From positions 1-28,307 of IMG/VR virus record IMGVR_UViG_3300042518_001753: a DNA stretch of 28,307 nucleotides; one strand, 5' to 3'. Shown here piece by piece: positions 1,479 through 17,435 of the stretch (the first letter of the stretch is position 1; each line of letters begins with the position of its first letter). The notes below the pieces were generated by a model. That model ran no database searches. It was not told where the DNA came from and worked only from the letters and a program-made list of their open reading frames with translations. Origin of the DNA: a virus. Position numbers and translations under genes: made by a program.

Positions 1479-1507
1479 TTGCGCGCGTGTATCCGATCTG
1501 ATACGCT
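1479..1507 (+). promoter_or_regulatory. Promoter/operator element P1 ahead of portal gene
   Basis: TTGCGC (1479-1484), 17 bases, then TACGCT (1502-1507). TGA precedes the second hexamer, giving an extended -10 form TGATACGCT. The spacer holds the dyad GTATC-N6-GATAC at 1489-1504. The same arrangement recurs at 2934 and 17389. If TACGCT is the -10, transcription would begin at about 1514-1515, on the ATG of the portal gene, so the message would be leaderless. The pattern is seen; the promoter role is inferred. Confidence 0.6.
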
Positions 1508-1514
1508 CGCCCGC

Positions 1515-3029
1515 ATGTGGGCTCGCATCGTCTCGATCGCGTCGCAGTGGTTCCAGCCGACCAAGGCCCTGTCGGCGGGGCCCGACGGGATCGCGATCAT
1601 CCTCTCGGGGGACGCGGGGCACACGTCCTCGAGCTACCCGGCCGAGTGGTCGATGTCCTCCCTCGCTCGCTTCCCGTGGGTGTGGACGTGTGTGCGCGCC
1701 ATCGCCGACGACGCGGCCGCGCTGCCTCTCGTGGGCGTGGTCACCGACGCGCAGGGCAATCGCACGCTGGTCGACGATCCGGCCCTGCGCCTGCTCCGCA
1801 ACCCGGGCGGGGGCCTCACGGAGAACCTGTTCCGTCGGCAGCTCTGGGTGGACTACCGGCTGACGGGCAACGCGTACGTGTGGCGCCCGTCCGAGGTCGA
1901 ACTCATCCGCCTGCACCCCGGGCGGGTCAAGGTCGACACCGCGGGCCTGGCTCACACGATCGTTGGATACTGGGTCACCGACGGCTCGGATCGGCAGTGG
2001 GTTCCGGTGTCGCAGATGCTCCACATCCGGGACGTGTCGTGGGAGGACGGCCCCGCGAGCGCCCTCGGCGAGTCCGTGATCCGCTGCCTCCACGACGACC
2101 TCACGATGGAGCTCGGCGCGAAGAAGCTCGCCGCCAAGCAGGCCAAGATGGGCCGTCCCGACGTGGTGTTCTCGTCGGAGTCCGGGATCTCGCCCGACGA
2201 CCAGAAGCACATCAACGAGCGGTGGGCGGCGGCGTCCCGCGACGGCCAGCTCGCCTTCACGGTCGGAAAAGGGCTCAAGGTCGAGACCCTCTCGTGGGAT
2301 CCGAGGGTGTTCGAGTTCGCCGCGAGGTCGGCCGAGGTGCGCGATGTGGTGCTCGCTGCGTTCGGTGTGCCGCCCGCGCGCGCCGGTCTCGCGTCTGCCA
2401 ACTACGGCACGCAGAAGCAGCAGATGCGCACGTATTGGGAGACGATCCGCGCCGCAACCCGCGCGTTCGACGACGCGTTCTCGACGCTCGCGCGCACGGG
2501 CGTACGCATCGAGTCAGACATGCAGGACGTGGAGGCGCTGCAGGTGTCGTACACGGAGCGCCAGCAGCGCGTGGTGACCTGGGTTGCCCTCGGTGCCGAC
2601 CCGAACGTCGCGGCCGCGTACGAGGGCTTCGACGACGCGCCGCAGATGGACCCCGCGAAGGCGGCGACCGTCGCCCCGAGCAACGGCACGTCGAAGAAGC
2701 CCGAGGAGCCGCAAGGCGACAAGGCCGCGACCGTGCTCGAGTACCTCACCGACGCCCGGCCTCGCTACGAGGTGATGGCCAGCGCCGCGAACGCCGGCGT
2801 CGACGTGACCCCCGCTCGCGCTGTCGAGGTCGAGCGCGCGTTCGCGGTCGCGTCGCAGCTCGCCGATCCCACCACGGCGCGCGCCTGGGCGGAGTCCACG
2901 GTGGGCTCCACGATCGAGGCGGTGCGGGCTGGTTTGCGCGGTGGTATCAGTTCTGATACGCTCCGAGCATTCGCCGCGGAGCGTGCCGATCGGCTCGCCT
3001 CCGGACTGCTCACCAGGGAGGCCGCGTGA
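1515..3029 (+). CDS. Portal protein (HK97-type)
   Basis: Forms the dodecameric portal ring at the head vertex through which DNA passes and to which terminase and connectors dock. The N-terminal half matches the Phage_portal family: WVWTCVRAIADDAAALPL, a DDPALRLLRNPGG segment, LTGNAYVWRP, LHPGRVKV and a later HIRDVSWEDG. Residues after about 400 form a charged, Ala-rich extension that would lie inside the head or face the protease. I chose ATG 1515 (504 residues). An in-frame TTG at 1479 is also possible, but it falls exactly on the -35-like hexamer of element P1 and no ribosome site precedes it. ATG 1515 also lacks a clear ribosome site, which fits a leaderless start. The last part of the gene contains the second promoter-like element. 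It overlaps the protease start by 4 bases. Confidence 0.93.
   Translation: MWARIVSIASQWFQPTKALSAGPDGIAIILSGDAGHTSSSYPAEWSMSSLARFPWVWTCVRAIADDAAALPLVGVVTDAQGNRTLVDDPALRLLRNPGGGLTENLFRRQLWVDYRLTGNAYVWRPSEVELIRLHPGRVKVDTAGLAHTIVGYWVTDGSDRQWVPVSQMLHIRDVSWEDGPASALGESVIRCLHDDLTMELGAKKLAAKQAKMGRPDVVFSSESGISPDDQKHINERWAAASRDGQLAFTVGKGLKVETLSWDPRVFEFAARSAEVRDVVLAAFGVPPARAGLASANYGTQKQQMRTYWETIRAATRAFDDAFSTLARTGVRIESDMQDVEALQVSYTERQQRVVTWVALGADPNVAAAYEGFDDAPQMDPAKAATVAPSNGTSKKPEEPQGDKAATVLEYLTDARPRYEVMASAANAGVDVTPARAVEVERAFAVASQLADPTTARAWAESTVGSTIEAVRAGLRGGISSDTLRAFAAERADRLASGLLTREAA
2934..2962 (+). promoter_or_regulatory. Promoter/operator element P2 inside portal gene end
   Basis: TTGCGC (2934-2939), 17 bases, TACGCT (2957-2962). 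The spacer contains the perfect dyad GTATCAG-TT-CTGATAC (2944-2959). It lies within the portal coding region, about 65 bases ahead of the protease start, so it could drive protease and capsid genes separately from the portal. The hexamers and spacing are identical to P1 although this copy is also constrained by coding. Confidence 0.6.
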
Positions 3030-3847
3030 TCGACGACGACGAGGGATCCGACGGCGTCTCGTGGGCCTGGGACGTGTGCCACCAGCGCGCCGACGGCGGC
3101 AGTTCGGTGCTGGTCAAGGCCGGCGGATCCGACAAGCAGAGCGGGACCACCCTCTTCGTTGCCTCGACAGACGCCCCCGACCGCGCGATGGACGTGGTGC
3201 GGCAGGACTGGCGCTTGCGTTCGTTCCGCGCGAATCCCGTGATCCTCGACAACCACAACACCGGCCGCGTGGTCGGCCGTGGTGTCGAGGTCTCCGTTCC
3301 GAAAGTGGGCGACGACGCCGGCAAGCTCATGATCCGCGTCGCCTGGGACATGGACAGCCCCGACCCTTCGATCCGCGCCGTCGGCCACCAGCACCTCTCG
3401 GGCATCCGCCGCGCGGGCTCGGTCGGCTTTCGCGCCGGGAAGCGCACCGAGCGGCACAAGCTGCCGCAGGACCACGCCGCCTACCAGGAGCCCGTGGAGG
3501 TCGAGACCTGGTTCGGAAAGATGAAGGTGTCGGGGTACTATCTCGAGGCCAACGAACTGATGGAGTTCTCGTCGGCGACGATCCCGATGAACCCGGAAGC
3601 CCTCCAGCGCTCCTACTTCGGCAAGGTCGACGCGCCGCCATCCCCGTCCGTGGTCCTCGCCGAGATGCTGCGGACCGCGCGCCCCGAAGACGTGCACGCC
3701 CTCGCGGCCGTCGTTCTCGACGAGTTCCGCACCCTCCCCGCTTTCGCCGATGTCGTCCGCGGCCTCGTCGAAGCCGTCCCCGCCAGCAAACCGCCCGCGC
3801 CTTCCGTCGCGGCATTGGTGCTCGAGCACCTGAAGAGGATCCCATGA
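3026..3847 (+). CDS. Prohead maturation protease (HK97/S78 type)
   Basis: Cleaves the scaffold domain from capsid subunits inside the prohead. At 273 residues it is a little longer than HK97 gp4. The family's spaced triad is visible: His77 in ILDNHNTGRVVGRG, Ser132 in the AGSVGFRAG block, and an acidic position around Glu180 in LMEFSSATIPMNPEAL, where the trailing NPxAL is typical. The start is GTG, overlapping the portal stop, with AGGGAGG about seven bases upstream. Residues after about 205 form a helical tail that is not part of the protease core. Its stop overlaps the capsid ATG (ATGA). It lies in the canonical portal-protease-capsid order. Confidence 0.9.
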   Translation: MIDDDEGSDGVSWAWDVCHQRADGGSSVLVKAGGSDKQSGTTLFVASTDAPDRAMDVVRQDWRLRSFRANPVILDNHNTGRVVGRGVEVSVPKVGDDAGKLMIRVAWDMDSPDPSIRAVGHQHLSGIRRAGSVGFRAGKRTERHKLPQDHAAYQEPVEVETWFGKMKVSGYYLEANELMEFSSATIPMNPEALQRSYFGKVDAPPSPSVVLAEMLRTARPEDVHALAAVVLDEFRTLPAFADVVRGLVEAVPASKPPAPSVAALVLEHLKRIP

Positions 3848-5424
3848 CCGAAGCCGAGAAGGCAGCGGCGGAGCTCGCCCACAAGCTCGCCGGCATCCAG
3901 AACGACGTGAAGGCCCAGGGCGGTCAGGTGACCGACCTCGCCGCGAAGATCGAGGCCGTGCAGACCGCGCAGCTGCAGGTCCGGCAGGCCGTCGAGGCGA
4001 CCCACCGCGCCGAGCGCGAGCGCTCCGTGCAGGGTGGCACCGAGCGCGACCTGATGTTCTACACGGCGAAGTCCGACGCGATGACCTCCGAGAACCGGAA
4101 GTCTTTCCAGGTCGCCGGCGACGACGCCGTGCAGATGGTCGGCGACTTCCGCAAGGCGGTGTCCGGGAACGAGGTGTACCGCACCTGGCACCCCGGCCTT
4201 CTCGACGACCCGAACCCCCGCACCACCGAGCAGCTCCGGCTCCAGCGCGCCGTCGAGCGCCGCTCGATTGCGCGCTCCCTCCTGGAGCGCAAGCACACCC
4301 CGCTCCTCGATGCCGAGGTCCGCTCGGCGGCCGCCGCGTGCGGTCCTGTCGTCGCGAAGATCTTCGCCGATTCGGCCGGTATCGGCGCGGAGTGGGTGCC
4401 CGACACCTTCCTGCCCGAGCTCGAGCGTGACGTGCAGGCGCCTACCGGCTTTGCCGCGCTGTTCCGCCAGCGCATGGTGAGCCCCGGCACGATCAAGATC
4501 CCGAGCCGGTCCTCGGGTCGCCTCCGCGCCTACGTCAACGGCGTGCCGACCACGAACAACCCGGCCGACGCGCTGATCAGCACCTGGACCACGTCGAACA
4601 ACAGCATCGACACGAAGCCCCTGTACGTGGCCGCGCAGGTCGAGCGGGACTTTGACGAGGACTCGATCATCGCGATCATGCCGGAGATCCGCGAGGAGAT
4701 GGCGCGCGCCTTCGGGTGGGCCATCGACGACGCGATCATCAACGGCGACACCAACGCCACGCACCAGGACGCGATCGCTACCTGGGACGGCCGCGGCGAG
4801 CTCGGCGGGACCTCCGGCCTCGGCACCACGGCGGACCACCGCCGCGCCTGGCTCGGACTGCGCGCCCGCGCCGCCGACCTCACCAGCATGACCACCGACC
4901 AGACCGCTGCGAAGACCTTCGCGGGTCTCCTCGTCGCGCTGGCGAAGCTCGGGCCGAAGAACCTGATGAACAGCCGCATGGGCCAGGGCGGGAACCGCGT
5001 CGTGGTCGCGCCCTCGTGGGAGTACTTCTTCTCGACGATGCTGTCGTGGTCGGAGTTCTTGACCTGGGACAAGGCCGGCCCCTACGCCAGCGCGCTCACC
5101 GGCTCCCTCGGCCCCAACCAGGCCCCGCTCCTGCCCGGTCAGGTCGGGTTCCTCTCGGGCTTCCTGCCGGTCTGCATCCCGGCGCCCCTCACGGCCGACC
5201 TCGCATCGACGGGCCTCTACACCGGCTCGGGCACCACGACCGGGATGCTCCAGTTCGACGCGAGCCGCTTCGAGTTCGTGACCCGGATGGGCATGCGCTT
5301 CGAGACGGCGACCCGCATCGAAAACAACACCGTGACCGCCGTGGCTCGCGGCCGGTACCTGTTCCGCGCGCAGGATGCCGTGGCCTCCACCATCAAGGAT
5401 GTCCACTACAGCTACAACCTCTGA
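3844..5424 (+). CDS. Major capsid protein (HK97 fold) with N-terminal scaffold domain
   Basis: The shell-forming subunit. The 526 residues begin with a strongly helical, charged coiled coil (about 1-65) and a further linker. The HK97 fold starts near residue 170 (FADSAGIGAEW), followed by ELERDVQAPTGFA, VERDFDEDS and NGDTNATHQD near residue 300. The long N-terminus fits a built-in delta (scaffold) domain removed by the upstream protease; the exact cleavage site is not identifiable here. The start is ATG 3844, overlapping the protease stop, with AGAGGA just upstream; an in-frame reading continues further upstream but has no ribosome site and overlaps the protease. The stop codon sits inside a strong stem-loop. 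Confidence 0.93.
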   Translation: MTEAEKAAAELAHKLAGIQNDVKAQGGQVTDLAAKIEAVQTAQLQVRQAVEATHRAERERSVQGGTERDLMFYTAKSDAMTSENRKSFQVAGDDAVQMVGDFRKAVSGNEVYRTWHPGLLDDPNPRTTEQLRLQRAVERRSIARSLLERKHTPLLDAEVRSAAAACGPVVAKIFADSAGIGAEWVPDTFLPELERDVQAPTGFAALFRQRMVSPGTIKIPSRSSGRLRAYVNGVPTTNNPADALISTWTTSNNSIDTKPLYVAAQVERDFDEDSIIAIMPEIREEMARAFGWAIDDAIINGDTNATHQDAIATWDGRGELGGTSGLGTTADHRRAWLGLRARAADLTSMTTDQTAAKTFAGLLVALAKLGPKNLMNSRMGQGGNRVVVAPSWEYFFSTMLSWSEFLTWDKAGPYASALTGSLGPNQAPLLPGQVGFLSGFLPVCIPAPLTADLASTGLYTGSGTTTGMLQFDASRFEFVTRMGMRFETATRIENNTVTAVARGRYLFRAQDAVASTIKDVHYSYNL

Positions 5425-5440
5425 CGCGCCCACGCGTCAG
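5421..5440 (+). terminator. Stem-loop overlapping capsid stop codon
   Basis: A perfect 8-bp inverted repeat CTGACGCG / CGCGTCAG with the 4-base loop CCCA; the capsid TGA (5422-5424) lies in the left arm. There is no T-run after it, so it is not a textbook intrinsic terminator. It could act as a leaky terminator, an RNase barrier or a translation-linked element that sets capsid expression apart from downstream genes. Confidence 0.45.
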
Positions 5441-5449
5441 CGGCACCTG

Positions 5450-5473
5450 CCCCGTACGGTTCGGCCGACGGGG
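5450..5473 (+). other. Second stem-loop between capsid and next gene
   Basis: CCCCGT (5450-5455) pairs with ACGGGG (5468-5473) around a 12-base loop that can itself partly pair (GG..CC). It lies between the first stem-loop and the ribosome site GGGAGG of the gene at 5496. Together the two form a tandem hairpin leader of about 55 bases, probably affecting mRNA stability or partial termination. Confidence 0.4.
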
Positions 5474-5495
5474 TCGAGGTGTCAAGGGAGGTCCC

Positions 5496-5882
5496 ATGTT
5501 CAAGGTCGCTCAGATGGTGCTTGGCAGCGGCGAGATCAACGCCGCCGGCACCGCCAAGTCGTACACCTACATCTTCTCGATGCCGGGCAAGTGGTTGATC
5601 CGCTCCGCCAAGCTCGTCCCCAGCGCGGCCGTCACCGCGAACGGCACGAACTTCGTGACGGCGACCGTGTCGAACGTGACCACCAGCACGACCATCACGA
5701 GCCGCTCCTACGCGGCTACCAACTCGGTCGCCGACACGCCCGAGACCCTGACCGCCCCGACCGGTCTGGCCGCGGTGCTGACCTCCGGTGACGTGGTCAA
5801 GATCGCGATGGCGCACAGCGGTAGCGGCCTGGCCACGCAGACCGTGGTCGTCCTCGAGCTCGAGCAGGCCCCGCTCCCGTGA
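5496..5882 (+). CDS. Putative head decoration or accessory virion protein
   Basis: 128 residues, unrecognised as a named family. It is rich in Thr, Ser, Ala and Val in alternating patterns suggestive of a beta-sandwich (for example TATVSNVTTSTTITSRSY, AVLTSGDVVKIAMAHSG), with no Cys and no membrane segment. A strong ribosome site GGGAGG lies four bases before ATG. The position directly after the major capsid gene, with its own hairpin-separated leader, is where decoration or cement proteins commonly sit, and that is the basis of the call. It could equally be a head fibre or minor head protein. Its stop overlaps the next GTG (GTGA). Confidence 0.45.
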   Translation: MFKVAQMVLGSGEINAAGTAKSYTYIFSMPGKWLIRSAKLVPSAAVTANGTNFVTATVSNVTTSTTITSRSYAATNSVADTPETLTAPTGLAAVLTSGDVVKIAMAHSGSGLATQTVVVLELEQAPLP

Positions 5883-6097
5883 TCCTGCGCCTCGCCGAGA
5901 CCGTGCCGTGGGCCGGGGGGTACTCCTCCTCGGTCCACACGGCGTGGCAACCCGGCGAGGCCCGCGAGGTCGACGAGGACGAGGCCAGCCGGCTGCTGGC
6001 CACGTTCCCCGACCTGTTCGCTCCCGTGGCCATCGAGCCCGCGCCGGAGCCAGAGCCACTCCCCATCGCTCCCCCGAAGCCCTCCCGCCGCCGGTGA
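5879..6097 (+). CDS. Small hypothetical protein of head-connector region
   Basis: 72 residues starting at GTG overlapping the previous stop. The N-terminal half carries WQPGEAREVDEDEASRLLAT followed by FPDLF, resembling short proteins often encoded between capsid and head-tail connector genes, in which a W-x-PGE stretch leads to a helix ending in FPxxF. The C-terminus is Pro/Glu-rich and ends in basic residues. No catalytic motif is visible. A structural role is inferred from position only. Confidence 0.6.
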   Translation: MILRLAETVPWAGGYSSSVHTAWQPGEAREVDEDEASRLLATFPDLFAPVAIEPAPEPEPLPIAPPKPSRRR

Positions 6098-6100
6098 TCC

Positions 6101-6691
6101 GTGTCGCTCGTGACCACAGCGCAGGTCCGCCAGCACTACCCCGCGCTCACGGGCGACGAGGTGCTGCTGACGACGATGATCGCGCAGGCAGACGGCCTGA
6201 TGGCGGGCGCGTGCGGGTTCCCCACCGCCGACTCCGGCGTCCACACGCTCCAGTCGACGACATACACCCGGTACCCGGTGCCGCTGATGGATCCGCGGGT
6301 CGTGTCGCTCGGGGTGCCGATCGCGTCGGTGACCTCGGCGCACGTCTCCGTGGACTGGACGTATGGCAGCGTGGACGCGGTCACGCTCTCCGACCTGGTG
6401 ATCGACGGGTCCTCGCTGATCCTCAAGCCCAACGCCGGGAAGGCGTGGTCGATGTCCTCGCGCGTCAACCGCTGCGTGGTCGTCGGCGGCTACGCCACCA
6501 CGCCTCCGGCGCTCGTCGCGATCACTGCCACGGCGGTTCGGCACCTGCTCCACGGGCGGCACACCGGCCCGCTCTTGTCCTCGTCGGCGGGCGGGCAGTC
6601 GATGTCGGTCGCGGCCGCCACCGACCTCCTGCCGCCTGAGGTAGTCGCTGCCCTGGCGCCCTACACGATCTGGGGGTCGCGTGTCGGCTGA
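6101..6691 (+). CDS. Head-tail connector / adaptor protein (gp6-like)
   Basis: 196 residues. The N-terminus (TTAQVRQHYPALTGDEVLLTTMIAQADGLMAG in outline) is the helical pattern of gp6-type adaptor proteins that ring the underside of the portal: a statement about where the ORF begins, then D-E-xxL-xxxIxxA. The middle part is beta-rich (TTYTRYPVPLMDPRVVSLGVPIASV), consistent with this type of connector in which the insertion describes a slope or substrate strip. GTG start four bases after the previous stop; overlap of 11 bases with the next gene. The family call rests on residue pattern plus position and is not certain. Confidence 0.6.
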   Translation: MSLVTTAQVRQHYPALTGDEVLLTTMIAQADGLMAGACGFPTADSGVHTLQSTTYTRYPVPLMDPRVVSLGVPIASVTSAHVSVDWTYGSVDAVTLSDLVIDGSSLILKPNAGKAWSMSSRVNRCVVVGGYATTPPALVAITATAVRHLLHGRHTGPLLSSSAGGQSMSVAAATDLLPPEVVAALAPYTIWGSRVG

Positions 6692-7184
6692 GACCGTCGA
6701 CCAGTGGGCGCCGCGGGTCTCCCGCGAGCTCGAGCGCATGCACGAGGCGCACACGGCCGCGCTGGCGAAGCTGGGCGAGTCCGCCGTGGCGGCGGCACGT
6801 CGTCGTGCACACCGCTCGGTCGCGCCCACGATCCGCGGCACCACGTCGAAGGACGGGATCGCGTTGTCGGCGACGCACCCGGCCGCCGCCGGCTTCGAGA
6901 CGGGCGGCCGCGTGTACGGCTCCCCGTGGCTCGCCGTCCCTCTCCGCGACGAGCTGCGCAACGTCGGCCCGCGGTCGGGGCCGCGCCTGTTCGTGATCCG
7001 CACCCGCGACGGACGGCGCTTCCTCGCGTCGCAGGCCAGCGGCGCGATCGACATCCGCTGGCGGCTGGTCCGCTCGATCGTCTCCGCGCACCGGCCCGCC
7101 ATCCTGCCCGCGGGCCGCGATGCCGCTGCCAAGATCCCCGACACGCTCGCCGCGGTCACCACCGAGAGGCTCACCCGTGGGTGA
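6681..7184 (+). CDS. Putative neck / head-closure or tail-completion protein (HK97 gp10-like)
   Basis: 167 residues. It opens with a long amphipathic helix (residues 5-45) followed by a basic, Gly/Pro-rich body with FETGGRVYGSPWLAVPL and FVIRTRDGRRF, and a final segment rich in helix formers ending before residues that resemble the LPAGRDAA-type C-termini of gp10-like proteins. Position between connector and tail terminator fits a neck or tail-completion component. GTG start within the previous gene (11-base overlap) and 8-base overlap with the next, so translation is likely coupled. Not a firm family match. Confidence 0.5.
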   Translation: MSAETVDQWAPRVSRELERMHEAHTAALAKLGESAVAAARRRAHRSVAPTIRGTTSKDGIALSATHPAAAGFETGGRVYGSPWLAVPLRDELRNVGPRSGPRLFVIRTRDGRRFLASQASGAIDIRWRLVRSIVSAHRPAILPAGRDAAAKIPDTLAAVTTERLTRG

Positions 7185-7635
7185 CCTCGTCGACCAGCAC
7201 CTCGCGATCCGCGACTCGCTCGCGACGCTGCACAACGCGGCGCTCGACCTGCGCGACACCGGGGCGATCCTGTTCGGCAGGTACACCCACCCGCCGCGGA
7301 TCCCGTTTGTCGGAATCTCGGCCCCGAACATCCGCTCGACGCAAGGCCCGGTCCTCCACCACTGGGACGACGAGGTCTCCGTCGACGTGGTAGCGTGGGT
7401 CCCGGTCGAGTCTGACGACCTCGACGGGCGTGTTCGCGCCAGCGTCGAGGCGATGTCGCTGTTGATCGGCGCCATCCGCGGGGCCATCGACGACAACACC
7501 TCGGCGCTCTACCGCGCCGAGTCCCTCACCGTGTCGGCTGGGTCGATCGACTCCGACGCAGATCCGACCTCACCGGGTGCCGCGCAGGTGGTGCTCGTGG
7601 TAGGGTGGAGCAATCGCCGGGCGGGTGCTCCATGA
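7177..7635 (+). CDS. Putative tail terminator protein
   Basis: 152 residues from GTG 7177. The sequence has the layout of tail-terminator proteins: an N-terminal helix, a beta-rich core (DEVSVDVVAWVPVES), a long helix (VRASVEAMSLLIGAIRGAI) and a final strand (AAQVVLVVGW). Such proteins cap the tail tube and join it to the head. The reading frame is open further upstream, but GTG 7177 overlaps the previous stop in the same way as its neighbours. The stop overlaps the ATG of the next gene. Function is inferred from position and secondary-structure pattern. Confidence 0.5.
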   Translation: MGDLVDQHLAIRDSLATLHNAALDLRDTGAILFGRYTHPPRIPFVGISAPNIRSTQGPVLHHWDDEVSVDVVAWVPVESDDLDGRVRASVEAMSLLIGAIRGAIDDNTSALYRAESLTVSAGSIDSDADPTSPGAAQVVLVVGWSNRRAGAP

Positions 7636-8474
7636 GCTGGTACGACGAGGACTACCAGAAGCGCGCCGCGATCACGGTCCACGAGGGCACCGCGACCGCG
7701 ACGGCCGACGTGGACATCACGATCCCGAGCGACTGGGACGACTTCTGGGACGCCATCGACAGCAGCGGCAACGAGTTGCGCATCACGTACGCTGACGGGT
7801 ACACGCTCGTCCCCGGGTACGATGTCGACAAGCCCGGGGGTGGGGCCTTCTCCAAGGCCAACCGCACCGGCCGGCTGCGCATCGACGCCGCCACCTTCCC
7901 CAACGTCGGGAACACGCTGGTGCTCTTCTGGGTGTACTACGACACTGTCAGCACCCAGGGCGACGGCTCCGCCGCGGTGACGATGGCGAGCATCAAGGAC
8001 GGCTACATCGAGCTCGGCAAGCCGGCGACCGACAAGCACACGAGCCAGCGGCACCCCCCCGGGCTGTCACGCCCCCGGCGCATCGTGTCGAAGACGGCGG
8101 GCGAGACCGCGGTGGTCTCCGTCGACCTGGCGCGTGTGCTCGAGCAGCGGGAGACGCCGTTCGCGGGCCGCCGCGCCCACGAGGAGCCGTGGGCGGTCCT
8201 TCACGCAGCGCTTGAGCAGGACGGCACCACGTCGGCAACCGCCACGATCTTCCCAACCAACGGCGCGGGGTCCCGGTACATCGAGACGAAGGGCGAGACC
8301 GGCGCGGAGCGTTCGCTGTGGCTCAAGGTGCCGATCGCGGCGGGCACGAACGGTGACAACTACACCGTCTCGCTCATCGTGCGCACGCTGCAACCCGGCG
8401 GGACCGCGTTCTATCGACAGATCAACGATCGGATCGGTGTGCGAGTAATCGACGCCGTCGAGGAGGCTACGTGA
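7632..8474 (+). CDS. Virion-associated protein with DUF2341-like N-terminal domain
   Basis: 280 residues; ATG 7632 overlaps the previous stop. The N-terminal 110 residues follow the pattern of DUF2341: WYDEDYQKRAAITV, then DVDITIPSDW, then ELRITYADGYTLVPGYDVD and LFWVYYDT (known members have a G-x-D-L-R-F-T-D-A-D-G core and end in a YYGN-like strand). DUF2341 is a beta-sandwich found in large secreted proteins and is suspected to bind carbohydrate. The C-terminal half (about 150-280) is another beta-rich region. An insertion between tail terminator and tail tube is unusual and suggests a surface-exposed decoration of the neck or tail tube. No enzyme motif is visible. Confidence 0.5.
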   Translation: MSWYDEDYQKRAAITVHEGTATATADVDITIPSDWDDFWDAIDSSGNELRITYADGYTLVPGYDVDKPGGGAFSKANRTGRLRIDAATFPNVGNTLVLFWVYYDTVSTQGDGSAAVTMASIKDGYIELGKPATDKHTSQRHPPGLSRPRRIVSKTAGETAVVSVDLARVLEQRETPFAGRRAHEEPWAVLHAALEQDGTTSATATIFPTNGAGSRYIETKGETGAERSLWLKVPIAAGTNGDNYTVSLIVRTLQPGGTAFYRQINDRIGVRVIDAVEEAT

Positions 8475-9466
8475 GCAACGGACTGATCGGCTACTCCGCC
8501 GGGATCGGACTCGCCGAAGAGACGACGTGGGGGACCCCCGTCACCCCGCTGACGCACTGGCTCCCGATCGTGTCGTCGAACTTGACCGTCACGCACGACC
8601 GGCAGACGATCCCGCACCTCTTCGGGCGTGCGGCGACCTCGACCAGCCGCCTTCCGCGCGACCACGCGTTGATGGGTGTCGACGTGGGCGGCTCGATCGA
8701 GTTCGTGCCCCTGTACGACCACAAGGCGACGCTGCTGATGTTCAGCTACATGCTCGGCGCGACCTACGTTACTGCCGGCGCGGGGCCCTACACCCACGAC
8801 CTCGATCCCGGCAACATCAGCTCGACCGTTCTCGGGCTGACGATGCAGGTCCGCATGGGCGGGCACCGCACCGAGACGGACCTGGTGCGCGTGTTCGCGG
8901 GGTGTGTCGTCAGCGGGTGGGAGATCAGCGCTTCGGCGCGGTCTCCCGTTCGCGTCAAGTGCGACATCATCGGCCGCAGCGCCGGCGACCCCACCACCCT
9001 CTCGGGAACGGCCGCGTTCGTCGCGGGTGACGAGATCCTGGCCCACCACATGGCCGCGACCGGGATCGCATGGAACAGCCGCACCGACCTGTTCCCCGAG
9101 TCCCTGAGCGTCAAGGCAAACAACAACCTGACCCGCACGCCGCGGGTCGGGTCGCTGTATACCGCCGAGCCCGGCGAGTCCGGGATGGTCGAGATCACGA
9201 TCACCGCCCGCTGCTACGTGATCGACACGTCGGTACTCACCAACTTCGCCGCCGAGGCCGAGGGGGATCTGGTGCTGACGTTCACCGGCGCGACCGCCAA
9301 CGATCGGCTGGCCATCACCGGCCACAACGCCGTGATGACCAAGTGCGACTTGGCCTCCGACTCGCCGGGGCGGCTGATGTATGACATCGAGTGGAAGGTG
9401 TACAACGACGCCACCGACAGCGGGCTCAACATCGAGTTCCGCAACGCCAACGCGGCAGCCGTCTGA
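8471..9466 (+). CDS. Major tail tube protein
   Basis: Polymerises into the tail tube. The 331 residues open with GYSAGIGLAEETTWGTPVTP, the characteristic N-terminus of Phage_tube_2-like tail tube proteins, followed by alternating beta strands: FVPLYDHKATLLMFSYMLG, YTHDLDPG, LTMQVRMGG, VSGWEISASARSPVRVKCDIIG. It ends with a typical core strand (LMYDIEWKVYND). GTG 8471 overlaps the previous stop by 4 bases. Position ahead of the assembly chaperone and tape measure supports the call. Confidence 0.8.
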   Translation: MSNGLIGYSAGIGLAEETTWGTPVTPLTHWLPIVSSNLTVTHDRQTIPHLFGRAATSTSRLPRDHALMGVDVGGSIEFVPLYDHKATLLMFSYMLGATYVTAGAGPYTHDLDPGNISSTVLGLTMQVRMGGHRTETDLVRVFAGCVVSGWEISASARSPVRVKCDIIGRSAGDPTTLSGTAAFVAGDEILAHHMAATGIAWNSRTDLFPESLSVKANNNLTRTPRVGSLYTAEPGESGMVEITITARCYVIDTSVLTNFAAEAEGDLVLTFTGATANDRLAITGHNAVMTKCDLASDSPGRLMYDIEWKVYNDATDSGLNIEFRNANAAAV

Positions 9467-10319: not shown

Positions 10320-10509
10320 GGCGCTCGAGCTACTCGACCGGATCGCCCGGAGGTACCGCTGCATGCCCCACGAACTGCTCTCGCTGCCCGACCACGCGCT
10401 CGCCTTCGCGGTGCTGGCCATGTCGGCGGGTGAGGAGGGCGAGCAGGATCGACTCCGTCGGCTCCCGAGCGGCGCGCAGCCCGTGATCGTCGTAGGCGGT
10501 GGCTCGTGA
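10318..10509 (+). CDS. Frameshift extension of tail assembly chaperone (gpT-like part)
   Basis: 63 codons in the +1 frame, reading EALELLDRIARRYRCMPHEL and ending VIVVGGGS. The RYRCMPHELLSLP segment resembles the C-terminal part of gpGT-type chaperones, in which a helix leads to a Pro-x-(E/H)-LL-x-LP motif. Joined at 10316/10318 it would give a product of about 279 residues. The extension's stop overlaps the tape measure GTG (10506), as expected for this family. Alternatively an ATG at 10363 with GGAGG nine bases upstream could start a separate 48-residue protein; but the in-frame sequence before that ATG already looks like coding helix. Confidence 0.55.
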   Translation, partial: EALELLDRIARRYRCMPHELLSLPDHALAFAVLAMSAGEEGEQDRLRRLPSGAQPVIVVGGGS

Positions 10510-12419
10510 GCGTAAGGGAGGTTGTCCAGTACCAGATCACGATGACCGCGCAGGGGGCGCAGACGACGGCCGCCGCGGTCAAGTCCGTCGACGCGTCGGC
10601 GAAGCAGGTCACCGCCGGCATCAAGTCGGCCGAGGAGGCTGTGAAAAAGTCGCTCACGATGATGGGCGGCTCGTTCGGCATGCTCGGCGAAGTCGCGTTC
10701 GAGTTGACCGGCAAGATCAGCGGCGCAGCAGGCGCGATCGGCGCCATGGGGGCCGCCGCTGCTCTGTCCGTGGTCGCGGTGGGGGCGCTGGCGTTCGCTG
10801 GGGTGCAGCTCGCCGCCGCTGCCTTCGAGGCCGGCGAGCGGCTGGAAAAGGCCGGGCTGCAGGCGATCATCCCGAAGGACGCACAGGCATCGCTCGACCG
10901 GTACAAGGACGGCACCAAGGGGCTCCGGGACGAGATCGACCTCCTCACGGTGTCGATGTCCGGCGACCTCCTGACCGCGGTCGGCGACCTGTCCTTCGCC
11001 CTCACCGGCGCGCTGGACAAACTCGGGAAGCTGCGGGACGCGGCCGCGGAGAAGGTCGGAGGCGACACCGGTGGCGGGTCGATGCTCCGCCGGGTCGCGT
11101 TGGGCATCGGCACGCTGGGCGCGTCCGAGGTCGCCGGCGCGTTGTCCGGGGCCATCCAGACCCAGATCGCCGACGGCGAGAGGCTCAACGAGATCCGGGC
11201 CACCGAGGCGCAGCTCGTGAAGGACGGCACCGCCTACATGGAGCGCGAGGCGTCGGCCCGCGAGTCGGTGAACCAGGACATCCTCGACGGGGTGGACGCC
11301 GAGAGGAAGCTCGAGGAGGCGAAGCGCCGCCGCGCCGAGGCCGATCGGGAGTCGGCAAAGGCCGCTGCGGAAGACGCCGCCGCCCTCCGCGCCATGCAGT
11401 CGGAGCTGGCGAAGCTGGCGGCCGAGGACGCGGCCGACTCCGCGCGAATCCGTGCGCAGATGCTGGCGTGGAACGACGCGGCCATCGCAGCGGAGGCCAC
11501 CGGCGCGGGGATCGCGGCGCAGGCCGGGGCGATCGACACTTCGGGGCTGGCCGCCGCCCTCAACGGCGGGGGGGGCGGGATCGCAGCAGCGGCACTCAAG
11601 GGCCTGCCCGGGATGCTCTCCGGCGGCGCCGGCGGCGTGATGTCCTCGCTCGGCGCAGCAGGCCCGGTCGGCGCGGCGATCGCTGCGGTGGTCGCGCTGC
11701 CGGACATCATCGACCAGATCGCCGGCACCGTCGACGGGCTGGTGGACATGTTCGAGGCGTTCCCGGAGAAGCTGAGCAAGGCCCTCACGGAGACCCTGCC
11801 CGGCATCATCGACGCGATCCCCGACCTCGTCGTCGCCATCGTGGAGGCCGTGATCGCGCTGCCGGGCATCATCATGGAGATGGTCCCCGAGCTTGTCAGC
11901 TCGATCGCCGCGCTCGTCCCCACCCTGATCGGCGACCTCGTTACGAGCCTCGCGGAGAACCTCCCCACCATGCTCGCTGACGGCCTGTCGTCCCTGCTCT
12001 CCGGCGGGTTGTACGGCGCGATCCTCAAAGGGGTCTGGGACGGCATGAACGAGGCGCTGAACGGCCTGCCCGACAAGATCGCCGAGGCGATCGGGAAGCT
12101 CCTGGCCCCGCTGACGAAGCCGTTCAAGGACAAGGAAGGCGACTTCCTCGGCACCGATTTGAAGGCCGCGAAGGGAGAGAAGAAGCTGTTTGGGATCAAC
12201 GTCCCCTTCTTCGACATGGGCACCCCGCGCATCCAGCGCGGAGGGCTCGCGGTTGTCCACGAGGGCGAGCGGATTAGCTCGGTCGGCGAGGGCCGATCGG
12301 GCGGCTCGCCCATCAACGTCACGGTGGTCGCCGACAGCCCGCGCGACATGATCCGGCAGATGCAGGGCCTGCTGGGGCCGTACGGGCTCGGCGAGACGCT
12401 CGCGGGGCTCGGACCATGA
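10506..12419 (+). CDS. Tape measure protein
   Basis: Sets tail length and is ejected with DNA. The 637 residues contain coiled-coil stretches (about 255-310, Ala/Glu/Arg rich), a hydrophobic membrane-like segment near 75-112, and a second hydrophobic region around 350-510 with repeated (I/V)P-x-(L/I) units such as LPGIIDAIPDLV, VPELV and LVPTLI spaced 10-18 residues apart, which is typical of the family. No lytic transglycosylase or peptidase motif is seen. By the usual rule of about 1.5 angstroms per residue the tail would be near 95 nm. GTG start overlaps the chaperone extension; stop overlaps the next ATG (ATGA). Confidence 0.9.
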   Translation: MSVREVVQYQITMTAQGAQTTAAAVKSVDASAKQVTAGIKSAEEAVKKSLTMMGGSFGMLGEVAFELTGKISGAAGAIGAMGAAAALSVVAVGALAFAGVQLAAAAFEAGERLEKAGLQAIIPKDAQASLDRYKDGTKGLRDEIDLLTVSMSGDLLTAVGDLSFALTGALDKLGKLRDAAAEKVGGDTGGGSMLRRVALGIGTLGASEVAGALSGAIQTQIADGERLNEIRATEAQLVKDGTAYMEREASARESVNQDILDGVDAERKLEEAKRRRAEADRESAKAAAEDAAALRAMQSELAKLAAEDAADSARIRAQMLAWNDAAIAAEATGAGIAAQAGAIDTSGLAAALNGGGGGIAAAALKGLPGMLSGGAGGVMSSLGAAGPVGAAIAAVVALPDIIDQIAGTVDGLVDMFEAFPEKLSKALTETLPGIIDAIPDLVVAIVEAVIALPGIIMEMVPELVSSIAALVPTLIGDLVTSLAENLPTMLADGLSSLLSGGLYGAILKGVWDGMNEALNGLPDKIAEAIGKLLAPLTKPFKDKEGDFLGTDLKAAKGEKKLFGINVPFFDMGTPRIQRGGLAVVHEGERISSVGEGRSGGSPINVTVVADSPRDMIRQMQGLLGPYGLGETLAGLGP

Positions 12420-13189
12420 GCGCACACATCTACTGGTACGCCCCTGGGGACCGGTCCCCGCTGCGGGATCTGGACCTCGGGCGCGCGCTCTCCGAGCTCA
12501 TCGAGTACGAGGTCCGCCGCTCCACGGTGCTCGAGTCGCTGTCGGGCCGGCGGACGCAACAGAACCACGTCGGGCTCATGCAGGTCCGAGTGAACGCGGA
12601 GTACCTCAACGCGCTGCGGTCTCCCGGCGTGATCCGCGAGTTGCAGGCGATCATCGGGCACCTCAAGCGAAACGGGACGATCGCGCTGGCCGAGGAGGAT
12701 GACTGCATGTGGGGAGGGTTCTTGCAGACCCTCCCGCGCCGCGGCGAGCTTACGCTGCGGATCCGCGAGAACCTCTGGAACGACTGGGGCACGCCGTCGC
12801 TCACCGCAGGCGGGACCGTCATTGTGCAGGGCCCCGGGCCGGAGATGCTGCGCGAAGAGGTGGTGATCACGGCGAGGACGGGCAAGACGATCACCCTGGA
12901 CACCGGCGGCCTCCTGCACGACTACTCCGAGCAGGCGTGGGTGTTCGTGCGGGATGCGCGGTTCTGGCCGTACCTCCGCCTGTCGGCGGCGCAACTGAAC
13001 AGCGACATCCTCCAGACCCAGCACCGCATCACGTACACGCTCGACGGCACCTTCGAGGAGCCCCCGAACAAGCTCGAGAAGGCGTACGCCGACGCGACCG
13101 CGTACCGAGCCAGCACCGCGACCGCGGGCGGCGCGCAGTACGACGTGGATGCGACCGACACCGCGACCGCCACGATCCGGGGGATCTGA
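12416..13189 (+). CDS. Tail-tip protein (distal tail-like)
   Basis: 257 residues; ATG overlaps the tape measure stop. Encoded directly after the tape measure, where the distal-tail or first tail-tip protein normally sits. Beta-rich, with RRTQQNHVGLMQVRVNAEYL, GELTLRIRENLWNDW, GTVIVQGPGPEMLREEVVITA and RITYTLDGTFEEPPN. No signature motif lets me name the family. A tail-tip role is inferred from order and composition. Confidence 0.6.
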   Translation: MSAHIYWYAPGDRSPLRDLDLGRALSELIEYEVRRSTVLESLSGRRTQQNHVGLMQVRVNAEYLNALRSPGVIRELQAIIGHLKRNGTIALAEEDDCMWGGFLQTLPRRGELTLRIRENLWNDWGTPSLTAGGTVIVQGPGPEMLREEVVITARTGKTITLDTGGLLHDYSEQAWVFVRDARFWPYLRLSAAQLNSDILQTQHRITYTLDGTFEEPPNKLEKAYADATAYRASTATAGGAQYDVDATDTATATIRGI

Positions 13190-14745
13190 TGGCCTGGTCG
13201 GATGAGCTCATCGACCGGCTCCGCTCGCCGTCGTACTCGCCGCGGTTCCTGCTCGAGTCGGTGGAGGTCGGGCAATTCAAGATCGAGGGCGCTCGACAAC
13301 TGCGGATCAGCTCGTTCGATGTCGACGGGTACGAGCACGCCATCGCCGCGATGGGCAACCGGATCAGCTACGGCGAACTCCAGATCCCCGCGTTCACGGC
13401 GACCACCTCGATGCTCACGCTCGGGCTTACCCGCGACGTGTCCCGGCAGGTCACCCGCGGGCTCGTGGTGCAGCTCCGGATCGGCTTCGCGGGCTGGCCC
13501 CCCGACCGCTTCGAGACGGTGTTCGTGGGCTGCGTGCGGGGCTTGTCCTACGTGCTCGGCTCGGGCTGGTCGCTCACCGTGCAGGACCTCGCAGGGTCGC
13601 TCACGTCGCGGTTCGTGACCTCCACGGTTCTCGCCGGGATGGCGGCCGGGTTGTTCGACAATCTGTCCGAGACGACCATCAGCGGGGGGGCGTACTCGGC
13701 CGGCGATCCCACCGTGAACGTCGCGTCAACCACGGGCTTCGAGCAGTCAAACCAGGGCGGAGGCGAGGGCTACATGTACCTCGTCACGTCCAACACCGGC
13801 GATGGGTTCTTGCTCCTCTCGACGGGCAAGACGGGAACCACCTTCACCGGCACCATCGGCACGGCGCTCTTCGGCACGACGGCCAGCGCCGCAGCAAACG
13901 GCAACGTGGTCCGCGAGGTCGTCTACACCAAGGGGCACCCGCTCACACTCGCCAGGCGGATCCTGGTGTCAACCGGCACCAGCACCACCTCGGCCGCAGG
14001 CAGCAACGGCACCGCCGACCTGCTCCCCGAGGCATGGGGCTACGCCCTCCCGCCCGCGTTCGTCGACGCCGGTGACATCGCGAAGCACAAGGGCCTAAGC
14101 CAGCCCGCGAGCGGAAACGACGATTGGGAGGTGGTCGAGTACGATCGGCAGGAGTCCGGATCCTCGTGGATGGCGGGGCTGCTCGCGCCCGGCGGCTACT
14201 TCCTGACGATGCGGCAGGGCGCTGTCACCGCGCGATGCCTCGTCGACGTGGAGCGAGGCGAAGCCGCCGAGACCTGGCGGTGCAGCGACGACGACATCAG
14301 CGAGCTCAGCTACGAGCCATTCGACGGCAGGCAGCCCGCCGAGTACCGCTACCTCCGCCTCGACGCTGCAGACGGTGGCTTCGACCAGCCCTCCGAGTCC
14401 ACGATCGACACGCGCCCAGTTGCGTACCGGCGGGAGATCACGCTCCCCTACGTGTGGAGCAACGGCAACGCGATCTGCAACGAGATCACGGCGCGGCTCC
14501 GCTACTACATGCTGCGGGTCCCCGAGCGGATCTCGATCCGCACCGCCGGCCTGCACCTGGCCCCGGCGACGATCGGCGACTGCGTGCGCCTGACGACCTC
14601 TGTAGTGCGTTCGCGGTGGGCGGAGGAAGGGCACGACTTCGCCGACCGGCCGTGCCTGATGGTGGGCGGTGGACCCGACTGGTTCCGCGGCGGGTGCCAG
14701 CTCGAGCTGCTGGCGATTCCGCCCTCCGCGGGGACCTCGTCATGA
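13189..14745 (+). CDS. Putative tail hub / baseplate protein
   Basis: 518 residues; ATG shares a base with the preceding stop (TGATG). The N-terminus (SYSPRFLLESVEVGQFKIEG) and strands up to residue 150 look like a hub domain. A central region (about 165-260) is Gly/Thr-rich. The C-terminus (YYMLRVPERISIRTAGLHL, then IGDCVRLTTSVVR) resembles tail-hub proteins whose last domain lists where conversion to DNA-channel strands occurs. Position after the distal-tail gene supports a baseplate or hub role. The family remains unconfirmed. Confidence 0.55.
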   Translation: MAWSDELIDRLRSPSYSPRFLLESVEVGQFKIEGARQLRISSFDVDGYEHAIAAMGNRISYGELQIPAFTATTSMLTLGLTRDVSRQVTRGLVVQLRIGFAGWPPDRFETVFVGCVRGLSYVLGSGWSLTVQDLAGSLTSRFVTSTVLAGMAAGLFDNLSETTISGGAYSAGDPTVNVASTTGFEQSNQGGGEGYMYLVTSNTGDGFLLLSTGKTGTTFTGTIGTALFGTTASAAANGNVVREVVYTKGHPLTLARRILVSTGTSTTSAAGSNGTADLLPEAWGYALPPAFVDAGDIAKHKGLSQPASGNDDWEVVEYDRQESGSSWMAGLLAPGGYFLTMRQGAVTARCLVDVERGEAAETWRCSDDDISELSYEPFDGRQPAEYRYLRLDAADGGFDQPSESTIDTRPVAYRREITLPYVWSNGNAICNEITARLRYYMLRVPERISIRTAGLHLAPATIGDCVRLTTSVVRSRWAEEGHDFADRPCLMVGGGPDWFRGGCQLELLAIPPSAGTSS

Positions 14746-15371
14746 GCCAGCCGATCCCCCGCCCGTCGCGTCCAGGCTCGGTCCTCTCGTGGAGCGGCAC
14801 CGCGTACGAGTGGGTGGCGCCGTCAACGCCCGGGCTCGTCCTCACGTCCGACAGCGACCGGACCGTGGTGTGGACGGTGCCGAGCGGCGGAGGCGGAGGC
14901 GGCGGTTCGGTGTCCTCCGTCTTCGGGCGAACGGGCGCGGTCACGGCGCTCTCCTCGGACTACTCCGCCCACTACCAGCCGCTCAACAGCAACCTCACCG
15001 CCTACGCCGGGCTGGCCTCCACCGGGCTCGTGGTGCGCACGGGTGCGGGAACGGCGACGGTCCGATCGATCACCGGCACGGCGTCGGAGATCAGCGTCAC
15101 CGACGGGTCAGGCGTCTCGGGCGCGCCCACGGTCGGCCTCGCGAGCAACCCCACGATCCCCGGCACCGGTGGCGCCGTGGTCCCAACCGGCACCACCGCG
15201 CAGCGCGGCGCGTCCACTGCAGGCCGACTCCGGGCCAATACCACGCTGACCGTGCTCGAGTACTACGACGGGTCCGGGTGGGTGCAGGTGGCTTCCGAGA
15301 GCTACGTCACCACGGCAGGGTCCGCGGTCGTCACCAGTGCGCGCCGGCTCGCTCTCTTCGGGGGTCTCTGA
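14742..15371 (+). CDS. Tail fibre / appendage protein
   Basis: 209 residues; ATG overlaps the previous stop. The N-terminus contains RPGSVLSWSGTAYEWV, followed by a flexible Gly-7 linker near residue 50. The next part has the common fibre signature SSVFGRTGAVTALSSDYSAH, then LASTGLVVRTGAGTATVRSI, both recurrent in side-fibre and tail-spike proteins. The C-terminus (LTVLEYYDGSGWVQVAS) resembles short fibre ends. No chaperone or lyase motif seen. Receptor contact is inferred. Confidence 0.65.
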   Translation: MSQPIPRPSRPGSVLSWSGTAYEWVAPSTPGLVLTSDSDRTVVWTVPSGGGGGGGSVSSVFGRTGAVTALSSDYSAHYQPLNSNLTAYAGLASTGLVVRTGAGTATVRSITGTASEISVTDGSGVSGAPTVGLASNPTIPGTGGAVVPTGTTAQRGASTAGRLRANTTLTVLEYYDGSGWVQVASESYVTTAGSAVVTSARRLALFGGL

Positions 15372-16594
15372 TGTCGCTCGGGATCGTGCTCACCACCACC
15401 ACCACGCTGCGGGTCACCACGACGACCACCGACGTGCTCCACTACGCCGCGAGCTACGGGGACGACGCCTCGAGCGCGATCACGATCGACGCGGTGGCGC
15501 CGGGCTCGATCTCCTCGGCGACGACCACCACGATCGTGGGCTCGCCGGGCGCGGGCAAGCGGATCGTGAAGTCGCTCACGCTGCGGAACACCTCGACAAC
15601 CGTCACCGTCGCCACCTCGGTCGACCTGTGGGACGGGACCACCGCGCGGCCGCTGTGCCCCTGCCGGCTCGGGCCCGGGGAGTCGCTGCAGTACGAGGCC
15701 GGTGCGGGCTGGATGATCCTGCAGGCCGACGGGAGCCCCCGCCCCGCGTCCGGCACGGTGCGCGCCGGGCGACCGTTCATGATCCTGAAGGCGGGGACGG
15801 CGCCGGAAGCGGCGGGCAACTGGTACTCCATGCACAAGGACGCCGGCCAGCCGGGGGCGTGGGCACCGGGGACGCCGGGCCTCAACGGCCGCACGACGAA
15901 CGGCACGACCACCACTGACGGCGGATGCATCCCGTGGGCGAACGCCACGAGCGGCTACGCCAACACGTTGGACAACCTTGCTGGGTCCAGCACGATCGCC
16001 GGGATGGCGATGCTCGTGGACATCGTGTGGATCAACACCGGCGCCGTGGTCACCACCACCACCCTGCAGGCGATCACCACGGGGACCCTGCCCGCGCGCG
16101 ACGCGAACGGCAGCAGCAACGGCGAGGGCTACGGCCTCGCGCTGCTGTTCACCGCCGCGAGTACGAACGCGGCGGCGATCTCGAACTGCACAGTCAACTA
16201 CACCAACAGCGACGGCACCACCGGGCGGGTGGCGACCCTCTCCGCGCTGCCGATGCTCATCCCCGCGACCCCCGTCATCGGCACCGTCGTGCCCTTCCGG
16301 CTCGCCGACGGCGACCGCGGCGTGCGCGCGATCACGAACGCGAGCGGGGGCGGGCTGACGCTGGGCACGAGCCTCGTCACGGGCTCGGTCTCGCTGGTGA
16401 TCTACCGGATGCTGGCCATCGTCCCGTTCCCAGCCACCAACGTCGGGCAGACCGCGATCGGCGGGGCGGGCGGCGTCCTCACCGCTGGGCCCCGCTGTTA
16501 CGATGGCACCTGCGCGCTGCTGTGGCTCTCGCTCAACGCCGGGACCGCCAGCAACCCCACGGTGTGGGGCAACGTGGTGGAGCGGCTGTTGTAG
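15371..16594 (+). CDS. Large beta-rich tail appendage protein
   Basis: 407 residues; ATG shares a base with the preceding stop. The N-terminus is a Thr-rich low-complexity stretch encoded by repeated ACC/ACG codons (LTTTTTLRVTTTTTDV). The body is dominated by Ser/Thr/Gly/Ala beta strands (SLTLRNTSTTVTVATSVDLW, GRVATLSALPMLIPATPVIG) with a few Cys residues. The C-terminal residues include PRCYDGTCALLWLSLNAGT, resembling receptor-binding virion proteins such as putative minor tail or head-appendage proteins. It ends the main tail operon. Exact family unknown. Confidence 0.55.
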   Translation: MSLGIVLTTTTTLRVTTTTTDVLHYAASYGDDASSAITIDAVAPGSISSATTTTIVGSPGAGKRIVKSLTLRNTSTTVTVATSVDLWDGTTARPLCPCRLGPGESLQYEAGAGWMILQADGSPRPASGTVRAGRPFMILKAGTAPEAAGNWYSMHKDAGQPGAWAPGTPGLNGRTTNGTTTTDGGCIPWANATSGYANTLDNLAGSSTIAGMAMLVDIVWINTGAVVTTTTLQAITTGTLPARDANGSSNGEGYGLALLFTAASTNAAAISNCTVNYTNSDGTTGRVATLSALPMLIPATPVIGTVVPFRLADGDRGVRAITNASGGGLTLGTSLVTGSVSLVIYRMLAIVPFPATNVGQTAIGGAGGVLTAGPRCYDGTCALLWLSLNAGTASNPTVWGNVVERLL

Positions 16595-16606
16595 GAGGAG
16601 GCGCGC

Positions 16607-16819
16607 GTGGAGACGACCAGGGAGGACCTCGGCGGCGGATGCGTGGCGTGGTACCCCGCGGGGGACGTGCGCGACGAGACCGTCCTCGTGTGGGTCGCGC
16701 CCGCAGACGGCGCGTGGGCCGTGTACCTCGAGGGCCTGCCTGGCGAGCCTCGGCGCCACGAGGGCATCGCCAGCGCCGCCGAGGCGGAGGCCGTCGCGGT
16801 CGCGCTGCTGACGGCGTGA
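16607..16819 (+). CDS. Small hypothetical protein
   Basis: 70 residues starting at GTG with a very strong ribosome site GGAGGAGG (16593-16601), one of the best in the window. The sequence VAWYPAGDVRDETVLVWVAP followed by a C-terminal helix SAAEAEAVAVALLTA looks like a compact alpha/beta fold. No recognised motif, signal peptide or membrane segment. It lies between the tail operon and a lipoprotein gene. Confidence 0.6.
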   Translation: METTREDLGGGCVAWYPAGDVRDETVLVWVAPADGAWAVYLEGLPGEPRRHEGIASAAEAEAVAVALLTA

Positions 16820-16861
16820 ATGCCACGCGCTCGCCGCGCGTACCTGTCCAACGGAGGGCCC

Positions 16862-17392
16862 ATGCTCCTGCTCCTGCTCGCGTGCACCGACCATGCCCCC
16901 GTGGCCCCCCTCGCTCGCGTCCAGGCGTGCAGCACCGACGCTCCGCCCGTCGACAGCGGCGAGCCACTGCCGCTCGACAGCGCCGAGCACACCGGCGAAC
17001 TCCCGGCGCCCGAGCACACCGGCGGCGACACCTGCGGAGCGGGCGCCGTTCTCGGGTGGCAGGTCCTCGACTGGGTGCCGTCGCAGTCTGTCAACCTCGC
17101 CATCTTCCCCGCGGGGTCCCTCTCGAGCGTGGGGCACATCGAGGTGCCGCTCGGCGAGGAGGGCGACGTGTGCGCCGCGACCTGCTCCGAGTCGTGGGCG
17201 ATCCCGGTCGTCTCTCGTCCAGACGGGTCGTGCTCCCAGGATCCCGCCGTGCTGCCGCTGGTGGGTGTCGCCTCCGGGCGGGTCGTGCAGGTCTGCGTGG
17301 CGGTGTACGAGCCCGCGGGGGCGCGCCGTGTCGCAGAGTGCGAGGTTACCGCGTCCGGCGGCGTCGCGTCGTTCCGGGTCCGCGCCGACTGA
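16862..17392 (+). CDS. Putative lipoprotein with Asp/Ser/Gly-rich tether
   Basis: 176 residues from ATG 16862, which has GGAGGG just upstream; an in-frame ATG at 16820 would add PRARRAYLSNGGP, a positively charged n-region, and is a real alternative because the shorter start lacks positive charges. The sequence MLLLLLACTD gives a lipobox (LLA-C) for signal peptidase II, followed by a tether rich in DSG, HTG and Pro (about residues 20-55). The remaining domain has several Cys (GDTCGAG, DVCAATCSES, DGSCSQD, VQVCVAVY), suggesting disulphides in the periplasm or outside. Function unknown; a superinfection or cell-surface role is possible. Its stop codon overlaps promoter element P3. Confidence 0.6.
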   Translation: MLLLLLACTDHAPVAPLARVQACSTDAPPVDSGEPLPLDSAEHTGELPAPEHTGGDTCGAGAVLGWQVLDWVPSQSVNLAIFPAGSLSSVGHIEVPLGEEGDVCAATCSESWAIPVVSRPDGSCSQDPAVLPLVGVASGRVVQVCVAVYEPAGARRVAECEVTASGGVASFRVRAD

Positions 17393-17417
17393 CGGCCCGT
17401 ATCAGACGTGATACGCT
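17389..17417 (+). promoter_or_regulatory. Promoter/operator element P3 ahead of fibre-like genes
   Basis: CTGACG (17389-17394), 17 bases, TACGCT (17412-17417) preceded by TGA. The spacer dyad is GTATCA-GACG-TGATAC (17399-17414), and CTCC follows as in P2. It lies in the 43-base gap before the gene at 17436, whose ribosome site GGTGAGG (17424-17430) starts about where transcription would begin. The -35-like hexamer differs from P1/P2 but keeps TGAC. Confidence 0.55.
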
Positions 17418-17435
17418 CCGGACGGTGAGGCACGT

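Follow-up and report, generated by a model that had tools for sequence, protein, structure and literature searches.

Leaderless SigA promoters, as well as one promoter located within a coding region, have been described in Cluster O mycobacteriophages (Corndog), together with a 17-bp dyad repeat, TGTTCGG-N3-CCGAACA, whose 34 copies are described as spread through the genome (PMC4351075). Cluster K mycobacteriophages carry start-associated sequences (SAS/ESAS), with 17-bp inverted repeats of variable spacer (PMC3203893). Among bacterial regulators, MazE6, a ribbon-helix-helix (RHH) antitoxin of M. tuberculosis, binds an 18-bp operator containing its own TANNNT -10 (PMC9477884), and the most active promoter class of this species is TGNTANNNT (PMC3898074). 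Here, we analyze a three-copy element of the 28,307-bp viral record IMGVR_UViG_3300042518_001753 (hereafter the window, to which the element coordinates refer), in which a 16-bp palindrome, GTATC-N6-GATAC, overlies the extended -10 and the spacer of a promoter-like sequence. We consider it fairly probable that the 3 copies are promoters of the host RNA polymerase, each with a dyad bound over the -10 by a dimeric, antitoxin-like repressor.

A three-copy element with a predicted promoter and a dyad

The first-pass annotation of the window had proposed that 3 elements share GTATC-N6-GATACGCTC. This pattern has exactly 3 perfect matches in the window, all on the plus strand (1489-1508, 2944-2963, and 17399-17418). 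The coordinates originally given, which extend from the -35 hexamer to the T of TACGCT, are correct with a tolerance of one base. Both the -35 hexamers and their 17-bp spacing to the extended -10 also proved to be as described, the full elements reading TTGCGC-N4-GTATCCGATCTGATACGCTC (copy 1, 1479-1508), TTGCGC-N4-GTATCAGTTCTGATACGCTC (copy 2, 2934-2963), and CTGACG-N4-GTATCAGACGTGATACGCTC (copy 3, 17389-17418). In copy 1, the -35 (1479-1484) is followed by the dyad GTATC-CGATCT-GATAC (1489-1504) and the extended -10 TGATACGCT (1499-1507); the corresponding dyads are GTATCAG-TT-CTGATAC (2944-2959), the most complete palindrome of the 3, in copy 2 and GTATCA-GACG-TGATAC (17399-17414) in copy 3, with TGATACGCT at 2954-2962 and 17409-17417, respectively. 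The right arm of each dyad is thus part of a host-type extended -10. All copies combine hexamers spaced within the 16-18 bp of SigA/sigma-70-type promoters with a TGN-extended TANNNT -10, and their -35 hexamers are weak and of the YTG type. A strict Escherichia coli promoter scan misses all 3 elements. A bidirectional promoter was considered and rejected: the mirrored -10 on the minus strand reads TACACG, TACCAC, and TACGGG, all lacking the terminal T.

Allowing up to 2 mismatches, the pattern has 6 matches versus 0.11 expected, a number reached in no shuffle; 2 of the 6 are the same sites on the opposite strand and 1 is a stray. Because the motif was defined post hoc, we also ran a class test for any 5-bp dyad with a gap of 0-12 and 4 fixed flanking bases in at least 3 copies. 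Such a family arose in 1 of 60 simulated genomes and consisted of G+C only, and GTATC-N6-GATAC, observed 3 times, was absent from 100 simulated genomes. Given this rarity, the original statement that the family cannot be due to chance stands. The TACGCT hexamer alone is not enriched (9 found versus 8.7 expected).

A second contig, IMGVR_UViG_3300037541_000727 (L146), overlaps both ends of the window (100% identity) and contributes a further 4,856 bp, closing a genome of 33,163 bp; the added part encodes a DUF5906/primase-helicase-like protein and the gene preceding the large terminase. No further copy of the dyad occurs in these 4,856 bp, leaving 3 copies in the whole genome. All 4 TACGCTC 7-mers of the closed genome have the form TGN-TACGCTC, lie on the plus strand, and have a YTG hexamer separated from them by the same 17 bp. 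The fourth TGNTACGCTC promoter, at 32573 of the closed genome, lies 51 nt ahead of ATG 32630; the gene that opens with this ATG precedes the large terminase and is by its position a small-terminase candidate.

Gene context of the 3 copies

In copy 1, TACGCT ends at 1507, 7 nt before ATG 1515 of the portal gene (Phage_portal PF04860, 1515-3029, plus strand), and there is no Shine-Dalgarno sequence. Among the 3 copies, only this one has a -10 ending 5-8 nt before a start codon that lacks a Shine-Dalgarno sequence, and from its sequence copy 1 is the leaderless promoter of the portal gene, with ATG 1515 as the predicted transcription start. In a relative with a 62% identical portal (L125), the same place reads TGATACGCT-CCCGGC-ATG, and TGNTA or TANNNT ends 5-10 nt before the portal start in 9 of 11 loci, compared with 2.9% of all ATGs there, the relatives being short contigs and the count ignoring relatedness among loci. 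The terminase-portal gap is 29-75 nt in loci with a clear terminase frame. This conservation predicts leaderless portal mRNA throughout a phage group. Dyads near the portal starts of other relatives occur at about chance frequency by our estimate, with the exception of L144, a distant relative in which a different palindrome, TGACA-N3-TGTCA, is repeated 3 times at an exact 32-bp spacing across the portal promoter and start codon (3798-3874; the third copy has 1 mismatch). This suggests that different members of the phage group may place different operators on the same portal promoter.

The annotation had also placed one copy inside the portal coding region, which applies to copy 2 only, copy 1 preceding the portal ATG. 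Copy 2, a predicted internal promoter, is followed by a head maturation protease-like gene (3026-3847, plus strand), whose frame has a good ribosome site and opens approximately 60 nt farther on, and by the capsid gene (Phage_capsid PF05065, 3844-5424, plus strand). The copy 2 codons GGT GGT ATC AGT TCT GAT belong to the nine-codon stretch with the lowest probability in the late genes, and the 6 least probable of 4,528 nine-codon windows in these genes all overlap copy 2. Third positions are A or T in 5 of 7 codons at copy 2, versus 7% on average, and the rare codons AGT TCT lengthen the palindrome to 7-bp arms. The portal gene of L125, the closest relative, carries a promoter-like counterpart, TGCTACGCT, at the equivalent position with its own peak of third-position A/T; farther relatives have no counterpart at the same place. 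Selection at the DNA level would be the simplest reading of these atypical codons. Collectively, the leaderless geometry in relatives, the copy 2 codons with their L125 counterpart, and the common TACGCTC frame support the reading of the elements as promoters, which we regard as well supported at the level of sequence.

The gene before copy 3 ends at 17392, and the one after it opens with a GTG at 17436, the short leader containing GGTGAGG. This first downstream gene (17436-17801, plus strand) belongs to the tail region, and its sole family match is phrog_1084, of unknown function; the proteins flanking copy 3 have no relatives among IMG/VR viral contigs. Thus, of the segments originally assigned to the 3 elements, portal and protease/capsid do follow copies 1 and 2, whereas the proposed second fiber cluster after copy 3 begins with a gene matching only phrog_1084.

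That 2 copies sit at gene junctions and that arms of 5 to 7 bp could pair in RNA would also fit a hairpin in the RNA or a different kind of junction element, acting in translational control or as a recombination boundary, instead of a DNA operator. However, a start at 1515 leaves the copy 1 dyad outside the mRNA of its own promoter, copy 2 lies within a gene, L125 does not retain the hairpin, and a scan with Rfam gave no match; we judge this explanation highly improbable.

The same architecture in bacteria and a repressor model

A scan of 257 Gb of bacterial and archaeal GTDB genomes for TTG-N7-GTATCA-N4-TGATAC-NNT-N6-ATG returned 53 matches versus approximately 2-7 expected, a rough estimate from base composition. 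Among the 45 downstream proteins scanned, 19 matched Gp49/HigB, 7 Phd/YefM, 3 HicA, and 1 HicB, and a few had helix-turn-helix (HTH) domains; at least 30 of the 45 match toxin-antitoxin families. The mirrored extended -10 with a close ATG recurs as a toxin-antitoxin promoter in many phyla (loci L184-L236, L241-L246, and L247-L272). In 296 actinobacterial genomes, a shorter pattern was found in 7 and its reversed control in none, the matches preceding Phd/YefM genes, an HTH protein, and RHH antitoxins, with a Doc-like gene after two of the latter. Of 16 upstream regions tabulated for homologues of the RHH antitoxins, 11 contain GTATC-N5/6-GATAC ending 9-10 nt short of the ATG, the distance at the portal being 10, and the copy 3 dyad differs by one base from GTATCAGTCGTGATAC, the dyad of 2 actinobacterial RHH antitoxin operons. 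The actinobacterial RHH antitoxins have TGGTATC-N5/6-GATACCA in common.

Among viruses, an unrelated phage (L010, IMGVR_UViG_3300048588_000260) carries 4 promoters of the form TTGNNN-N4-GTATCACTAGTGATAC with a 17-bp spacer, located at 2695, 3643, and 7375 of L010 and at 28385 of G015; 3 of them have an ATG 6 nt after the -10, and 2 of the 4 dyads have one mismatch. Their geometry was first recognized in a scan of viral contigs for the pattern together with its -35. A NikA-like RHH gene of L010 is located between two GTATCACTAGTGATAC sites. The bare pattern was discarded as evidence of enrichment, its matches in IMG/VR (at least 120) being as numerous as our estimate of chance. A further AT-rich viral contig (L102, 2018-2078) carries 3 tandem GTATCCTTTTTGATAC units approximately 23 bp apart.

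The enrichment of this layout in bacteria, its fourfold occurrence in L010, and the MazE6 operator point to a repressible promoter in which the operator would be the mirrored extended -10, a reading of the dyads that is supported by their architecture. The dyad had initially been regarded as a site for either a repressor or an activator, and of the two a repressor is the better fit, because the dyad covers the -10. Late phage genes are commonly turned on by an activator, and the weak -35 hexamers would suit a dyad-binding activator or alternative initiation factor required for late transcription. However, the spacer is normal at 17 bp, the overlap with the -10 suits occlusion, and the bacterial look-alikes mostly precede toxin-antitoxin genes, which are autorepressed; we therefore judge an activator unlikely.

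In the proposed repressor model, the main (sigma-70/SigA-type) RNA polymerase of the host would read all 3 promoters, from predicted starts at portal ATG 1515, near 2970, and near 17424. Promoter 1 would yield a leaderless mRNA beginning at the portal ATG, promoter 2, within the final part of the portal gene, would serve protease and capsid, and promoter 3 the genes from 17436 onward. Judged by position only, the 3 promoters may thereby separate the portal, protease/capsid, and tail segments, as the annotation had envisaged. As the palindrome is the extended -10 mirrored into the spacer, a dimeric protein bound to it would have to cover the -10 and occlude the polymerase, so that the 3 late segments would respond jointly as one regulon, with the repressor holding back or trimming late expression.

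The repressor would most likely be of the antitoxin or RHH type, encoded by the phage or the host; its family is not deducible from sequence, since HigB-, Phd/YefM-, HicA/B-, and RHH-type operons all show the half-site. Two RHH proteins of the phage, an RHH_5/Arc-like protein (25776-25940, plus strand) and a NikA-like protein (PF21983; 21109-21438, minus strand), are plausible candidates by analogy. Alignment places the DNA-reading strands of the RHH proteins together, the alignment being weak and uninformative on specificity. The winged-helix protein named as a candidate in the annotation has no family match. A host antitoxin is a possible regulator as well. That a toxin-antitoxin-type operator on virion genes binds a host antitoxin, so that the phage senses the toxin-antitoxin state and makes particles once the antitoxin disappears, is a speculative extension that we rate as a long shot; if a host antitoxin were indeed the regulator, late expression of the phage would be linked to the toxin-antitoxin systems of its host.

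Several observations weigh against an operator bound by such a repressor. The GTATC left arm is not present before the portal in L125 or in farther relatives, so the promoter is old and the dyad recent or fast-changing; of the conservation in relatives that the annotation had made a test of the family, the -10 and its position were retained and the left arm was lost in L125. The fourth TGNTACGCTC promoter belongs to the same class and has no dyad, so that the two features can be separated. Across viral contigs as a whole, the pattern with its -35 is not enriched, with 14 stretches versus 20 for a swapped-arm control. Finally, neither phage RHH gene is preceded by the operator, as would be expected of an autoregulated repressor, which excludes autoregulation through this site for both proteins. 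The first 2 of these points would fit plain promoters without an operator, TGATACGCT being simply the preferred extended -10 of the phage and the spacer GTATC accidental or copied along with the promoter. Such an origin does not readily explain why GTATC stands at an identical offset in all 3 copies when no simulated genome contained these dyads, why rare codons stretch the copy 2 palindrome, or why the dyad-promoter layout is enriched before bacterial toxin-antitoxin genes. Plain promoters are thus a doubtful but serious contender, and we favor promoters with a repressor operator.

Other features of the genome were observed alongside these elements. A 75-nt inverted repeat with 88% complementarity (19960-20034 and 24776-24850 of the window) encodes VPWE.AGGPDEC.HGYAAGVPC.RC near the starts of 2 different genes on opposite strands. 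Short tandem repeats, CTCGGGTTCTA and GAACCCGAGTA, at 7787-7835 and 7999-8027 of L146 lie in an AT-rich stretch between the primase-helicase gene and the pre-terminase genes and could mark a replication origin. A scan for tRNAs gave no match. The first 12 kb of the window have no megablast match to any named phage, and a search for the host by portal alignment in GTDB contigs found none.

Comparison with known systems

The elements resemble the Corndog promoters in being predicted leaderless phage promoters with a -10 beside the start codon, in including one intragenic promoter, and in combining repeated dyads of fixed arms with a variable center. Unlike the Corndog repeat, the dyad described here has another sequence and is set exactly on the promoter. 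With the SAS/ESAS of Cluster K, they share the character of short repeated elements beside the starts of phage genes, inverted repeats being present in some; those sequences differ from the present ones and occur in many more copies. The L010 promoters have a different center, ACTAGT, the sites that were read precede small genes rather than virion genes, and the phage is unrelated.

The closest likeness is to the autorepressed promoters of type II toxin-antitoxin systems (Gp49/HigB, Phd/YefM, HicAB, RHH-Doc, and MazE6), in which a palindrome with a GTATC-N5/6-GATAC core likewise lies on the extended -10 and the start codon follows 9-10 nt past the dyad, with a short leader or none. The palindrome over the -10 and the geometry of a toxin-antitoxin operon are both found in the phage. 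Unlike in those operons, portal, protease/capsid, and a tail-region gene stand downstream in place of toxin and antitoxin genes, the sites are 3 and separate, one of them is intragenic, and no repressor gene is part of the operons. A mirrored extended -10 with a close start codon thus offers a sequence-only rule for candidate repressible promoters, which across bacteria recovers mainly toxin-antitoxin genes, and here the same architecture is seen on phage structural genes, including a putative promoter hidden within coding sequence. By analogy, the elements can work like a toxin-antitoxin promoter without being a toxin-antitoxin operon.

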